Part shown: positions 3,480 to 9,377 of the stretch, one piece after another | Layout: the number at the start of each line of letters is the position of its first letter | Position numbering within the stretch: the first letter of the stretch is position 1 | Assembly (NCBI RefSeq): GCF_020215665.1 | Contig: NZ_CP084061.1 | Coordinates: 4,138,501 to 4,202,500 of the forward strand | Length of the DNA: 64,000 nucleotides | Direction: 5' to 3' | Origin: Blautia parvula | Lineage (GTDB): Bacteria; Bacillota; Clostridia; Lachnospirales; Lachnospiraceae | Notes under the pieces: generated by a model | Seen by the model: only the letters and a program-made list of their open reading frames with translations | Told to the model about the DNA's origin: nothing | The model's database searches: none | Made by a program: the position numbers and the translations under genes

Positions 3480-4691
3480 TTAAAGATATTGGGTAAGTCT
3501 TTCTCCATAAAGGACAATCAGCTGGTTCAGCACCTGGTCCCAGTTCCGGTATCTCTGGGTCCATTTTTTTATGACATTTTCACTTGCAAGATATAACATT
3601 TTCTTCAGTGATACATCACCTGGGAATACACTTTTTGTTTTGGTTACCTTTTGGTACTGACGGTTCAGCCACTCTATGATATTCGTATACATAATGCGCC
3701 GGATATCTTCAGAAAATTGAAAGAAGGAATTAACATCTTCCCAGTTGTTTTCCCAGTTACTGATCGCGTAGGGATATTTCTTTCCCCATTTTTCTTTTAT
3801 ATTTTCCAGTTCTGAGAGTGCGGCAGCCTCATTGGAGGCATTGTATACCGCCTTGAAATCAGAAGAAAACTTCTTCAAATCCGTGTAATTCACATATTTA
3901 AAAGAATTGCGGAGCATATGGATGACACATCTCTGAATCTCAGCCTGTGGATACACAGCCTGGATGGCTTCTTTGAAGCCTGACAGTCCATCCACACAGA
4001 AAAACAACACGTCTTTCACCCCACGGTTCTTCAGGTCATTGAGCATTCCAAGTCAGAACTTGCTGGTTTCATTCGCTCCGACAGTAATGCTGAGAATGTC
4101 TTTATATCCCTCGGTTGTCACTCCCAGCACTACATAGGCTGCACGGCTGAGGATCCTGCCGTCTTCCCGTACTTTGTAATGGATGTAGTCCATAAAAACA
4201 AAGGGATATATGGGATTCAGCGGACGTGACTGCCATTCCTTAACTTCCGGAAGGATCTTATCCGTTATTTTACTGACCATCTCTGCAGACAACTCAATTC
4301 CGTAGAGGTCCTGGAGCTGGTCATGGATATCCCTTGTGCTCATGCCTCGGGCATAAAGGGAAATGACCTTTTCCTCGATGCCGGAGATATCCCGCTGATA
4401 CTTTGGAACCAGTTTGGGCTCAAAATCCCCATTCCGGTCTCTGGGGACATACACCTGAAATTCCCCATACTGACTTTTGAGTGTTTTGGCAGAATGCCCA
4501 TTTCTCTTGTTGTTGGTAACTAAATCCCCTTTTTTATTTTTTTCGTATCCAAGAGTGGCATCCAATTCTGCCTCCATAAGTTCTTGAAGGATATCCTTGA
4601 AACTTTCTTTTAGTAGTGCATAGACATCCGTAACACTGGTAATGTTGTTTTCTGAAATAATCTGTCGAATTTGTTCCTTTGCTACTGGCAT
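3480..4691 (-). pseudogene. IS256-family transposase interrupted by one nonsense codon
   Basis: A Mutator/IS256 DDE transposase of 402 residues in a single frame except for one TGA at 4055-4053. The protein reads ANETSKF, stop, LGMLNDLKNRGV; in relatives this site is normally Trp (SKFWL), so one TGG-to-TGA change explains it. The first catalytic Asp lies before the stop (FVFMDYIHYKV), the second Asp (FFCVDGLSGFKEA) and the Glu (NIIEWLNRQYQKVTK) after it, so neither fragment can be active alone. Ribosome-binding site AAGGAG precedes the ATG at 4691. The downstream fragment could restart at the ATG at 4046 but would lack part of the DDE triad. Confidence 0.9.
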
Positions 4692-5075
4692 AAAAATACT
4701 CCTTTTCGATAAGAATTGTCATATCTTAATTCTTACCAAAAAGGAGCCACTTTTTACCAAAGACACAAATTAATTTACACTACCTAAATGGAAGGTATAT
4801 CGCTTGCTTGTTTGTTAATCATTCCGAGATCTTAAAGCTGTAGATAACTTCAATGATTTCTTATATCTGCCAGGTAGTCATTCATTTTGCATACATGGAA
4901 ATAATCTTTTAATCAATATTGGAAGTGTTTTTTTGCCATTTTTTTAACCACTTGCGATCCAAAAGTAAATTTTCGGTCTCACGGCACATCTATCACCAAG
5001 GCACCGTAATTGCTGTTTATGCGTTAACGCTTGTATCCATTGTGAAAATAATCCTTGCCTGAATGTTCTGATTTT

Positions 5076-5210
5076 TCATAATCCTAAATACTTATCCCGT
5101 TTAGCTTCCATTATTTCCTTAATGGTTCCACCAAGGCAATTTTTCAGGGAATCTTGAATTTCTTCATATGTTTGAATATCACATTCTCCCGAAAGCTGAT
5201 AAATTATGTT
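5076..5210 (-). pseudogene. Remnant of a second IS256-family transposase (N-terminal fragment)
   Basis: Read leftward, 44 codons give a peptide containing EIQDSLKNCLGGTIKEIMEA then KRDKYLGL and a stop. This matches the N-terminal block of another IS256 subgroup, where LGGTIKEMMEAELDDHLGYEK is typical; it differs from the neighbouring transposase (ILQELMEAELDATLGYEK). A stop closes the frame on both sides. It is an old decayed fragment, suggesting repeated insertion at this spot. It is too short for certainty. Confidence 0.6.
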
Positions 5211-5268
5211 TCATTTTCCTTCTATTATTTGTACTCTGTGTACTGATTTCTTTTATCTTACCATAATA

Positions 5269-5483: not shown

Positions 5484-5972
5484 TTATAAATCGCTAGCAC
5501 CCGTATATTTTATCGTAAAATTAATAGTACCACTATAATGCCCCGCATTCGTTATACTTGCTTCATCAGGAGGTGTTAACTTATATATTTTTGATGTATT
5601 ACTACTATCAAGTGTGGCTTTTTCTACAGTGTCAAGCGTTGCTTTTATTTCACTACTTGAATTACCTTTATCCACCAAAGTTAATGTATTATCAGTTGTG
5701 TCCAACCCTGTTCCACCTAACTCCACCTCCACTTTTTTATCTAATTCCAACATGTAATCTTTTATACCAACAGTAATTTCTTGTATAGTATTACCAGCTG
5801 TAATTGACATATCCGCCGGAATTGTTACTGTATATTTTACTGGCTGATCCAATGAAATGGTTAGACTCCCACTGTCAGTTCCTTTACTAATATCTTGAGC
5901 CAACACCGGCACACACATCCCAATCGTCATAACCCCTGCCAACCCCATAGCTACTAACCCTTTTTTCTTCAT
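5484..5972 (-). CDS. Small secreted beta-rich surface protein
   Basis: 162 residues. A signal peptide (MKKKGLVAMGLAGVMTIG to about residue 23, cleavage near VLAQ-D) is followed by an exported domain rich in Thr, Ser and beta-formers. The domain opens with YTVTIPADMSIT and closes with GHYSGTINFTIKYT, a pattern also seen at the C-terminus of the preceding gene product, so the two likely share a fold. No cell-wall sorting motif or WxL motif is visible. The start is ATG at 5972, eight bases after AGGAGG; a TTG at 5978 is too close to the ribosome-binding site. Last gene of the riboswitch-controlled operon. The function is unknown; a structural surface subunit is my inference. Confidence 0.75.
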   Translation of the reverse strand: MKKKGLVAMGLAGVMTIGMCVPVLAQDISKGTDSGSLTISLDQPVKYTVTIPADMSITAGNTIQEITVGIKDYMLELDKKVEVELGGTGLDTTDNTLTLVDKGNSSSEIKATLDTVEKATLDSSNTSKIYKLTPPDEASITNAGHYSGTINFTIKYTGASDL

Positions 5973-5997: not shown

Positions 5998-7287
5998 TTA
6001 ATTAATTTCCATTTCAAAATTCTCGACTCTACTCTCATACACCACATGGAACACCAGCACTCCCGAATATTCCCCCGCACACAAATCAATATTATTTTCC
6101 GGCAGAATATTCACATCCTGTGCCTCACTCCACCCATCCAGAATCGCCTGATTCTCTTCCGGTGTAATCAAGTTCCCGGCTATCTCCAGCCGGTATTCCC
6201 AACTGTTTTCTCCGCAGTACAGTGCGAAGTTCTTCCTGTCTCTGCTCTCAGTTCCTTCCACTGTGACTACAAGCTCTCCATCCTCTTCCGGTATCAATTT
6301 CTTAGTCTGAATCGTAAAGCTGTCCGTGTCATCTGTCAGTTTTACCTGTGAAGGAATTTCGACTTCATATACAGGTTCATTTGACGGCAGCGGTTCTTTT
6401 TCAGCATCCAGGTCTTCCGGGGTATTCTCCATATCTTCCGTTCCATCTATGGCTTCCCCTTCATCCTTTCCACTGGTATCCGCTGTCTCTTCATCTTCTG
6501 CGTCTGTTTCCTCAGAAATATCCTCCTGTCCTTCCGTTTGAGGTGAGGTCACCTCATGGGCCTCTTCATCCATATGGGAAATATTATCCTTCTGGCCCTG
6601 ATTTGTTATTCCGGACGGTGTATCTTTCTGACTGTCACCGCTTTCTTCTCCTCCGTTCTCATCTTCTTTCTTATTATTTTGTCCGTCTGTTTCCCCGGAT
6701 TCTTCCGGTTTGGAATCCTTCTGTTCAGGATTTTCACTTTCGGGGTCATCTTCCCCCTGCTGCTCTGAATCCTGGTCTTCCTCCTCCAAATCCTTACTTT
6801 CCTGCTGTTCCTCCAGCTCCTGCTGCTTTTTCAGCTCTTCTTCTGCTTTCAGCTTTTCCAGCTCATACTTGCAGGGAACCGCTTCAACTGCAGGCCGGTA
6901 CGCACATTCCGGACAATGATTTGTAATGCCGTCCCCATCCGTATCCACACACTCATGGTCACATGGTATTTCCGGCACTGCCTCTCTATAGCCACAGAAT
7001 TCATCGTGATGATGCACTCTGTTGACTTCATCCTTTTCTTCCTCATTTTCTTCCTGAAGACTATCTTCTGTTTCCTCTTCTTCGTCAAAGTCCTGAGGTT
7101 CTTCTATATCTGCTGAAATCCAATTTCCGTCCACATCCCGGACAAGCTCCTGTGATACTGCAGGATCTGCTTCCCCGTCTTCATTAAATTGCTCCGCGTC
7201 AGCAAAGGCCATCCCTGTATTTCCAACTACAAGTACCGCTGACGTGATAACAGAAATTACAATCCCTCTCCAATTCCTGCTGTCCAT
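5998..7287 (-). CDS. Acidic low-complexity exported surface protein
   Basis: 429 residues. A signal peptide or anchor spans about residues 7-29. Residues ~90-142 form a Cys/His-rich patch (HHHDEFCGY, then CDHECVDTDGDGITNHCPEC), where DTDGDG resembles a calcium-binding loop. A long Glu/Asp/Gln/Lys-rich, probably disordered stretch occupies ~143-305. The final ~120 residues form a beta domain (YEVEIPSQVKLT to GEYSGVLVFHVVYE) resembling the small secreted protein encoded next. The ATG at 7287 has GGTGG close upstream. It is the middle gene of a three-gene operon. The acidic stalk plus end domain suggests a spacer-type surface protein; this is inference, and no known family was recognised. Confidence 0.75.
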   Translation of the reverse strand: MDSRNWRGIVISVITSAVLVVGNTGMAFADAEQFNEDGEADPAVSQELVRDVDGNWISADIEEPQDFDEEEETEDSLQEENEEEKDEVNRVHHHDEFCGYREAVPEIPCDHECVDTDGDGITNHCPECAYRPAVEAVPCKYELEKLKAEEELKKQQELEEQQESKDLEEEDQDSEQQGEDDPESENPEQKDSKPEESGETDGQNNKKEDENGGEESGDSQKDTPSGITNQGQKDNISHMDEEAHEVTSPQTEGQEDISEETDAEDEETADTSGKDEGEAIDGTEDMENTPEDLDAEKEPLPSNEPVYEVEIPSQVKLTDDTDSFTIQTKKLIPEEDGELVVTVEGTESRDRKNFALYCGENSWEYRLEIAGNLITPEENQAILDGWSEAQDVNILPENNIDLCAGEYSGVLVFHVVYESRVENFEMEIN

Positions 7288-7299
7288 GAAACACCACCC

Positions 7300-7884
7300 T
7301 TATCTCACATCGAGCACGGTCTCCATATTTGCTCCGTTCATGGGGGATAAGTCCACAATACTTGCCGTTGTGATTCTCAATTCAGCCGCATATTCCCCTG
7401 CATCCAAAGCCTTGCTGAATGTAGCTGTTGTAATCGCCTCCCCGGGAGGCACCTGTTTTGATTCATAAAGCACTTCCCCGCTGTCCTTGAGCACAAGCTG
7501 GAATGTAAAATAACAGGGGTTCCCTTCCGGGTTGGAAAATGCCACATCCACATCTGTCTGTCCTGCAGGAATATATATCTTAGGATATCCCGGTAATTCT
7601 ATATTCTCCGCATTGGGATCGCCTTTCGGGGCCTCCGGGATAGTTCCGTCCCAGTCCCCTGCATTTGGATCAATATCCGCTGATACCTGCTCCTCCTGTG
7701 CCTTGTCATTGTCTCCGCCAAACCATCCGAGCTTATACCCCGCTGCACCGGCACCGCCCACTGCTATAACACCTACAAGGGCTCCGATCATGATTTTCTG
7801 TCTCAGTACCGCTTTCTGAAGTTTCAGGGCATTATCAGTGACCATCTCACCGGTGCTCTTTGTTTTCTTCTCTTCTTCACTCAA
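7300..7884 (-). CDS. Single-pass membrane protein with extracellular beta domain
   Basis: 194 residues from the TTG at 7884, chosen because AGAGGTGAG lies just upstream; an in-frame GTG at 7914 would add ten residues but has no ribosome-binding site. About 30 charged cytoplasmic residues are followed by a membrane helix at ~31-52 (IMIGALVGVIAVGGAGAAGY), an acidic linker and an extracellular domain (PKIYIPAGQTDVDVAF to GEYAAELRITT). First gene of the surface operon, 12 bases before the acidic protein. It could anchor or nucleate the other two; the family is not recognised. Confidence 0.7.
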   Translation of the reverse strand: MSEEEKKTKSTGEMVTDNALKLQKAVLRQKIMIGALVGVIAVGGAGAAGYKLGWFGGDNDKAQEEQVSADIDPNAGDWDGTIPEAPKGDPNAENIELPGYPKIYIPAGQTDVDVAFSNPEGNPCYFTFQLVLKDSGEVLYESKQVPPGEAITTATFSKALDAGEYAAELRITTASIVDLSPMNGANMETVLDVR

Positions 7885-7946
7885 TTCTCTCACCTCTGAA
7901 ATTTTTGGCCGCACGGAATTATATTTTATGTCTTCAGGATGTTTTT

Positions 7947-7993
7947 GTTATTATAGGTATAATAACAAAGAGAGTATGCCTAGGCATACTCTC
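7947..7993. promoter_or_regulatory. Two adjacent perfect palindromes before the surface operon
   Basis: GTTATTATA-GG-TATAATAAC (7947-7966) is followed three bases later by GAGAGTATGCC-TA-GGCATACTCTC (7970-7993), a 24-base perfect palindrome. Both lie 60-110 bases upstream of the first gene's start. They could be operators for a dimeric protein or RNA hairpins in the leader; there is no T-tract to make them terminators. Confidence 0.5.
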
Positions 7994-8002
7994 GCGCGGT
8001 TC

Positions 8003-8127
8003 CTGATTTTTTTCAGTTTCGGATGTTTGTGCGGCAAACTCCGGCGCTATGCCTGAACTTTGCACAAACCTAAAGGATTCTGCTGCCTCCGGCAGGGGCG
8101 TTCTTTCATTTTTTGTACAAAAAGAAC
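8003..8127 (-). other. Series of four small hairpins in the leader RNA
   Basis: CTGA/TCAG (8003-8016), GTTTGTGC/GCACAAAC (8025-8069, 29-base loop), CTGCC/GGCAG (8083-8095) and GTTCTTT/AAAGAAC (8100-8127) stack between the riboswitch terminator and the operon. I see no match to a known RNA class. The run could be a second regulatory RNA, a processing site or a dispersed repeat. Confidence 0.35.
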
Positions 8128-8194
8128 ATACTTATCCTGTGACAAGTATCTACCGGCTTTTTACCTCGGGATACACTTTTCCCCGAAATAAAAA

Positions 8195-8218
8195 CTGCCT
8201 GCAGCAATTTGCAGGCAG
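8195..8218 (-). terminator. Riboswitch-linked intrinsic terminator
   Basis: CTGCCTGCA and TGCAGGCAG form a perfect 9-base stem (8195-8218) followed leftward by TTTTTATTTC. It lies about 45 bases downstream of the riboswitch, in the position of an expression platform, so ligand binding likely decides whether the surface operon is transcribed. Confidence 0.85.
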
Positions 8219-8261
8219 AAGCGTATCAAAATAAAGCAAGGTATAAAAATCACCTTACAAA

Positions 8262-8356
8262 AAATAATACGGCAACTGGCTGTCATAGTCATGCTTGTTA
8301 GACCTTAGACCCTTTAGCTTTGTGTCACTGCCTTTCGACAGCTTTACTATTATCGA
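8262..8356 (-). promoter_or_regulatory. GEMM-I (c-di-GMP-I class) riboswitch with A at the ligand-reading position
   Basis: Read leftward the RNA has the class hallmarks in order: CGATAATAGTAAAG, then stem CTGTC-GAAA-GGCAG with its GAAA tetraloop (8333-8336), GACACAAAGC, the GGGTCTAAGG stem start, and 3' GACAGCCAGTTGCCG. Aligned to Vibrio cholerae Vc2, C13-G14 fall at 8355-8354 and the conserved G21/C46 pair is kept, but position 20 (8348) is A, not G. In known members G20 contacts one base of c-di-GMP and A20 variants (GEMM-Ib) can prefer 3',3'-cGAMP. A promoter lies just upstream and a terminator just downstream. Identity as GEMM-I is near certain; the ligand is open. Confidence 0.9.
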
Positions 8357-8373
8357 ATATTTATCTTAAACTC

Positions 8374-8402
8374 ACCATACTCCATTTCGTGTTAAATGTC
8401 AA
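8374..8402 (-). promoter_or_regulatory. Promoter of the riboswitch/surface operon
   Basis: Leftward TTGACA (8397-8402), 17-base spacer, TATGGT (8374-8379). Transcription would start about ten bases before the riboswitch. Confidence 0.75.
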
Positions 8403-8576
8403 CATGTATTTACAGAGTACCAAAATTATACTATTTATGCCAAGAATGTGCAAATATGACTTTGCACATCCAGTATGACAAAAATATTTCTTCACAATAT
8501 ATTCGCAATGTTATACCCTGCATTATTTTAATATTTTTAAATTCATCCGCATTCCCCGAAACAATCCTGTCCCATC

Positions 8577-9377
8577 TCAATTCCCACTACTCTCATACCT
8601 CCCAAGCCCCCTCTTAAGCACAATCACAGCCACCCCCGTCATCACCGCACATACAGCCGGCATAACCATCACCCCGGCACGCATCCCGCTCTTTCCCAGC
8701 AGATACCCCACCGGATAGTAACTGACAAACGCATACGGAATCAAATACGCGAATATCCCCTGCAGTACAGGCGGATAAATGATCAGCGGATATTTCGCCA
8801 TCTCCCCAATGGAAATGGCAAAGAAATTCAAACTGTTCTTCCCTCCCTCCATCCAAAATGAGGCACAGCTTGCAATCCAGATCATACACACACGAATCAC
8901 ACAACATTCCACAAGAAACACCGCCAGACAGACAATTTTCCACAAACTCCACCTGATATTACAGTGACTTGCCCCCAGAGCAAACACAGCCGCCGCAATC
9001 CCCATCTTATTCAGCCCGTCAAAGTCAATCCTGGCCGTGAGAAGCTGCAGCCCCACGGGAAGCGGCCGCACCAGAAACCGGTCCAGATCGGCCAGATTGA
9101 TCATCTCCGCAATCTTCCAGGTTCCCTGAAAAAAGAAGTTAATACACCCCTCCGAGAACAACAGAAAACTGTACAAAAGCAGTATCTCCCACAGCTTCCA
9201 GCCCCCCACCTCAGGGATATTACTGTAAATGATCCCAAGCACCCCCAGATTACAAACCTGAGAAAACCCGGTAAAAAATACCATCATCAGGAAATCCGTC
9301 CTGTACTCAGCCAGGGACTTCATATTCTGCATCTGAATCTGCCCATACATCCTCAGATAATGCCTCCATCTCCTCAT
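8577..9377 (-). CDS. ABC-2 type exporter permease
   Basis: 266 residues with about six membrane helices and the ABC-2 permease pattern of the COG3694 group, usually paired with a COG4587 permease and a NatA-like ATPase. An early amphipathic region (NMKSLAEYRTDFLMM) precedes the first helix. The ATG at 9377 has GGAGGGTG upstream and lies three bases past the preceding permease. Last gene of a three-gene exporter. The substrate is unknown; related trios are annotated only as uncharacterised transport systems. The gene body is unusually C-rich on the plus strand, unlike the AT-rich flank. Confidence 0.85.
   Translation of the reverse strand: MRRWRHYLRMYGQIQMQNMKSLAEYRTDFLMMVFFTGFSQVCNLGVLGIIYSNIPEVGGWKLWEILLLYSFLLFSEGCINFFFQGTWKIAEMINLADLDRFLVRPLPVGLQLLTARIDFDGLNKMGIAAAVFALGASHCNIRWSLWKIVCLAVFLVECCVIRVCMIWIASCASFWMEGGKNSLNFFAISIGEMAKYPLIIYPPVLQGIFAYLIPYAFVSYYPVGYLLGKSGMRAGVMVMPAVCAVMTGVAVIVLKRGLGRYESSGN

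Follow-up and report, generated by a model that had tools for sequence, protein, structure and literature searches.

A c-di-GMP-I riboswitch with A at position 20 precedes a putative surface-protein operon in Blautia parvula

The aptamer and its pocket residues

A leader RNA of Blautia parvula combines the GEMM-I fold with A at the position of G20 in the Vc2 aptamer, the key residue of the 3′,3′-cGAMP-sensing GEMM-Ib RNAs. This raises the question of which dinucleotide the RNA senses and in which direction it switches the operon behind it. In the window, which here means the whole stretch of 64,000 nucleotides analysed, the Rfam scan gave a single match at gathering score. This was the c-di-GMP-I (GEMM-I) family RF01051 at 8358–8268 on the minus strand, covering the full model (positions 1–87) with a score of 74.2 bits (E 1.1e-12; gathering score 35). 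When the leader was searched with E up to 5, two further matches appeared, each below gathering. The original prediction of a GEMM-I RNA was confirmed by this match; it had placed the element at 8262–8356, which is the right locus, with bounds that differ by a few bases from the match (8268–8358).

In the RF01051 alignment, the base at model position 11 is A (8348, minus strand). Model position 11 is the equivalent of Vc2 G20 in Cd1 (PMC9262584) and likewise in Bc1, where A38 and C81 correspond to A47 and C92 (PMC11218506). The equivalents of G21 (8347), C46 (8322), A47 (8321), and C92 (8272) are all kept. The A at position 20 and the retention of these four residues had been read earlier from the letters alone, and the covariance-model alignment agrees on each, placing A, not G, at position 20. 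A20 is accompanied by U19; the first pair of P2 is G-C, and the second is U-A (8346/8323), where the consensus has C-G. The RNA therefore scores as RF01051 and has the G21-C46, A47, and C92 equivalents of this family, while G20, which is typical of the family and not required for membership, is replaced by the A20 that characterizes GEMM-Ib. These results place the window RNA within the c-di-GMP-I class as a genuine, unremarkable member carrying a common variant of the pocket.

We surveyed 20 genomes of the genus, including that of the window, and found GEMM-I in four of them. The orthologous aptamers of two other species (G007 and G008; loci L004 and L005) both have A20, at model position 11, and the same U-A pair. 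Since the G007 and G008 orthologues share A20, this base is neither a sequencing error nor a fresh mutation.

The genome has three GEMM-I RNAs in all, namely the window aptamer, L002, and L003. L002 belongs to c-di-GMP-I-GGC (RF03167) and has G20, and L003 is a sub-gathering match (33.5 bits) in which position 20 is U. The RF03167 riboswitch with G20 (L071 9537–15273; C1:309536–315272) precedes a frame of 1852 aa with Peptidase M60 and Fn3 domains. The U20 GEMM-I-like sequence of 33.5 bits lies outside the window (L072 7432–8726; C1:3887431–3888725) and has apparently lost C92. Upstream of it are a tyrosine recombinase gene and a perfect pair of 26-base inverted repeats separated by 246 bases, and downstream of it is an operon with FctA-type pilin and camelysin-like proteins. 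L072 is thus likely to have an invertible promoter beside a decayed or variant GEMM-I.

Position 20 in other genomes and the choice of ligand

The original prediction took A20 as a sign of an unusual cGAMP or mixed response. Position 20 was read in a sample of 397 genomes of the family, 135 of which had GEMM-I. The aptamers came from 30 loci and 80 other places among the better-scoring matches listed, and the alignment model was built from 33 aptamers, with eight sources from the own genus and identical copies left out. Among the matches listed, 111 distinct aptamers from other genera of the family, some of them neighbours within one locus, had G in 94 cases, A in 16, and C in one. U19 went with A20 in 13 of 16 aptamers and with G20 in 20 of 94 (Fisher p 6e-6, relatedness uncorrected).

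When named genomes were scanned for a pattern demanding A20, at least 119 stretches were returned; in 49 of the 119 listed, the model confirmed a GEMM-I with A20, with a lowest score of 30.2 bits. Judged by title, 36 of these 49 loci among the matches listed are from Bacillota (e.g., Clostridium, Paenibacillus, Evansella, Tepidibacter, and Propionispira), two of which (L093 and L159) are counted here on a placement that we assume. In two genomes titled Geobacteraceae and Pelobacter, 23 aptamers had A (9), G (8), C (5), or U (1) at this position, after a 24th row, the cut-off second copy of an aptamer, was left out. With A20 this frequent in the family sample and in many Bacillota, the inference from A20 to an unusual cGAMP response is weak and was not supported.

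In 7 of the 49 A20 loci among the matches listed, the A20 aptamer neighbours one with another base at position 20 (G in six and C in one). Adjoining GEMM-I aptamers with A beside G were found in other Bacillota at L183 2500–3034, L172 1701–1956, and L107 2495–2699. These resemble the Desulfobacca case described in PMC9481103 and offer natural pairs for ligand comparison.

The enzymes of the genome point to c-di-GMP. There were 42 GGDEF and 14 EAL matches; the GGDEF alignment had 45 rows, three of which were second copies. The position that discriminates Hypr enzymes is position 348 of GacA, which we equate with the Asp in GHxxGD. In the 22 rows measured, the distance from this Asp to GG[DE]EF was 24 residues in 18, 23 in three, and 25 in one; Ser348 and Asp374 of GacA imply a spacing of 24 residues (PMC6456294). 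According to the same source, Ser348 marks the Hypr GGDEFs and Asp at this position the canonical ones, GGDE[F/Y] is the only form of the motif in Ser/Thr enzymes, and the Hypr type likely originated among ancestral deltaproteobacteria. In the genome of the window, the position was Asp in 38 domains, Asn in three, and Glu in one, the last four all having degenerate GGDEF motifs, and the Ser/Thr of the Hypr signature occurred in 0 of 42. A Hypr enzyme would be expected to accompany a GEMM-Ib RNA in its genome, though it does not define the RNA class. SMODS (PF18144) had no match in this genome and had matches in 3 of 14 control genomes; within the genus it was found in 1 of 20 genomes (G012), which has no GEMM-I match. 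PF21654 (DncV-like) had no match in the genome, nor in any control genome. The search for a CD-NTase or hybrid GGDEF, by which the cGAMP proposal was to be checked, accordingly returned neither; this absence is judged from the residues in the GGDEF domains and from PF18144 and PF21654, the latter of which matched no control genome.

Published A20 RNAs likewise keep c-di-GMP within reach. The binding of c-di-GMP by Cd1 is reported not to change greatly when G11 is replaced by A or C (PMC9262584). In Desulfobacca, a natural A20 aptamer is described as having gained c-AMP-GMP binding with c-di-GMP binding perhaps slightly weaker (PMC9481103). A review (PMC7288161) lists cGAMP as an additional ligand of a G20A mutant of c-di-GMP-I (PDB 4YB1) and c-di-AMP as an additional ligand of a G20A/C92U mutant; the retention of C92 in the window aptamer speaks against c-di-AMP. 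From these results, the physiological ligand of the window aptamer is most likely c-di-GMP, and its A20 pocket may also accept 3′,3′-cGAMP in vitro.

Two other assignments of the ligand were weighed against c-di-GMP. The RNA could be a true 3′,3′-cGAMP (GEMM-Ib) riboswitch served by an unrecognized enzyme. A20 is the residue whose change to G makes the Gmet_0970 RNA a c-di-GMP sensor (PMC6456294), it stands here with U19 as in A12, U13, and A14 of the Geobacter structure, and the coupling of A20 with U19 recurs in the family sample among the matches listed. However, the genome has neither a Hypr GGDEF nor a SMODS match, and the first P2 pair after A14 in the Geobacter structure is C15-G40, where the window RNA has G-C. 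The latter point is not decisive because A20 aptamers of the two genomes titled Geobacteraceae and Pelobacter also have G-C. Overall, a dedicated cGAMP switch seems very unlikely to us. A dual sensor, integrating both c-di-GMP and cGAMP inside the cell, would fit the published cases in which an A20 change confers cGAMP binding and the Desulfobacca aptamer, which keeps c-di-GMP binding; it would likewise need a source of cGAMP, which neither the GGDEF residues nor the SMODS search revealed, and we consider it improbable. Least probable of all, and little more than a long shot, is that a Bacillota species senses 3′,3′-cGAMP made by an enzyme lacking Hypr and SMODS signatures, with the A20 RNA shutting off the surface operon and, in a sister species, polysaccharide genes.

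By itself, A20 is a poor indicator of cGAMP sensing in Firmicutes: it is common there, and at least this genome has c-di-GMP enzymes and no recognized cGAMP synthase. Should cGAMP prove to be the preferred ligand of Firmicute A20 aptamers, genomes of this kind must contain a cGAMP synthase of an unknown type.

The leader and the genes behind it

A promoter-like TTGACA-17-TATGGT (8374..8402, minus strand) was found by consensus scan just upstream of the aptamer; 7700–8700 holds eight promoter-like sites on both strands, against a mean of 2.0 in shuffles, and the TTGACA is kept in the three species. Downstream of the aptamer, past an intervening hairpin, lies an intrinsic terminator (T1; 8195..8218, minus strand) followed by TTTTTATTTC. 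T1 is conserved in the three species, with one compensated pair. About 310 bases separate T1 from the likely start codon of gene 1, and this part of the leader has a second terminator-like perfect palindrome (7970..7993, minus strand) adjoined by another perfect hairpin (7944..7969, minus strand). These side-by-side palindromes with 12-base arms (7944–7993) are kept in G007 and have no match in G008.

Two other explanations of this region were rejected. A genomic repeat at 7940–8185 was not supported, as among the 20 genus genomes the stretch occurs only in the own genome and G007, once each (palindrome self-match aside). An invertible element was also considered; of five inverted-repeat pairs in 7600–8800 (two perfect with 12-base arms, which are the adjacent hairpins, one perfect of 10 bases, and two imperfect and longer), none was convincing.

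Three genes follow on the minus strand, and their products are probably one membrane-anchored and two secreted proteins. Gene 1 (7300..7884; 194 aa) likely starts at a TTG after AGAGGTG; its longest frame begins at GTG 7914, and the spacing from AGAGGTG to TTG 7884 is kept in G007. It has a membrane helix at its N-terminus and, in the predicted structure, a beta domain modelled with confidence (residues 101–194; block pLDDT 88–96). Foldseek gave no match for gene 1 at E 0.001 or better, the best being CopC, carbohydrate-binding module, and Ig-like folds. Gene 2 (5998..7287; 429 aa) encodes an acidic protein and gene 3 (5484..5972) one of 162 aa from ATG; both have signal-peptide-like starts, judged by eye, and are probably secreted. 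None of the three proteins matched Pfam at E 0.01 or NCBIfam above a curated cut-off, gene 3 alone having weak sub-threshold NCBIfam matches, and the structure model of gene 3 (mean pLDDT 51) was too poor for structure search. The downstream operon of surface-type proteins foreseen from the letters was thus borne out, with the surface location read from the protein sequences.

The same three genes lie downstream of the aptamer in G007. Gene 1 is about 95% identical to its G007 counterpart, and gene 3 is 45% identical overall with 23 of the first 25 residues (the signal peptide) identical, so the mature protein of gene 3 seems to diverge fast. In G008, the first downstream frames of at least 110 aa, about 650 bases on, are polysaccharide genes (Polysacc_synt_2, Wzz, and a ParA-like ATPase). 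All three species thus have surface-type genes behind the switch, though not one shared set. Mobile elements were also observed nearby: a Mutator-family transposase split into two frames at 3480–4691, a second transposase remnant, recognized by eye, after the operon at about 5050–5240, and, in G007, a full-length frame that looks like a Mutator-family transposase after its copy of the operon.

Switching direction and comparison with known systems

The aptamer and T1 do not overlap and can form together. When transcripts of the own species and G008 were cut before T1 was complete, the 3′ end of the aptamer, including the C92 equivalent, paired with a stretch reaching up to the 5′ strand of T1; the truncated transcript of G007 preferred a pairing of the P2 3′ strand with T1. 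From these folds and the pairs shared by the three species, we predict an antiterminator with a 5′ arm at 8266..8282, which includes the C92 equivalent (8272), and a 3′ arm at 8212..8227, which overlaps the 5′ strand of T1 (both minus strand). In alignment A9, the antiterminator joins the C92 equivalent (column 107) to G157, and 13 of its 14 pairs remain standard throughout the three species. At columns 97, 167, and 178, C, G, and C change to U, A, and U, by which the antiterminator and T1 both stay paired; this covariation is one event in three sequences, with the antiterminator read off the own sequence. The energy gap between the free and the aptamer-forced fold was matched or exceeded by shuffled platforms in 164 of 300 cases for the own species, 112 of 300 for G007, and 120 of 300 for G008. 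The gap thus does not exceed that of shuffled platforms, and folding energy does not support the antiterminator.

Without ligand, the 3′ part of the aptamer with the C92 equivalent would pair with the stretch running into the 5′ strand of T1, and polymerase would read through. With ligand, the aptamer would keep that strand, T1 would form, and transcription would stop before the three-gene surface operon. Because the C92 equivalent is paired in the predicted antiterminator, which competes with T1 and shows one compensated change, the ligand probably turns the operon off. Cd1 is such a transcriptional OFF switch, in which aptamer and terminator can form side by side, in competition with an antiterminator in which C87 is paired, while in the pilM ON switch the aptamer and terminator exclude each other (PMC9262584). 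By analogy, we favour an OFF switch like Cd1 with moderate confidence. The polysaccharide genes behind the G008 element count against this reading, c-di-GMP repression being unexpected there.

The same aptamer might instead be an ON switch, or exert its control chiefly at the second terminator-like hairpin or at translation. T1 is part of the full-length minimum-energy fold in all three species, the energy control of the antiterminator was negative, the long stretch from T1 to the likely start contains the second hairpin, and Bc1 is described as having two terminators and dual control (PMC11218506). On the other hand, the predicted antiterminator pairs the C92 equivalent in an arrangement kept in three species, aptamer and T1 are compatible, unlike those of pilM, and nothing in G008 matches the region of the second hairpin. 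We regard this alternative as possible, though rather unlikely. Our preferred reading, which we hold to be likely as a whole, is that this c-di-GMP-I riboswitch most likely responds to c-di-GMP and probably acts as a transcriptional OFF switch via the antiterminator and T1.

Among known systems, the window RNA resembles RF01051 in the whole model, the GAAA tetraloop, P2 and P3, G21-C46, A47, and C92, and differs in having A20 for G and U-A for C-G at the second P2 pair. It shares A20 with U19 with the Geobacter GEMM-Ib RNAs, whereas its genome has no Hypr GGDEF match and its first P2 pair is G-C against C-G in the crystal RNA. With Cd1 of C. difficile, it has in common a ligand-binding cytosine paired by the antiterminator, here a predicted one, and a compatible aptamer and terminator; Cd1, however, has G20 and controls flagellar genes, and the window RNA has A20 and lies ahead of an operon for surface-type proteins. 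Bc1, from the Bacillus cereus group, is similar in its long leader with two terminator-like hairpins, but has G20 and terminators 28 bp apart, as described in PMC11218506, against about 200 bases in the window leader.
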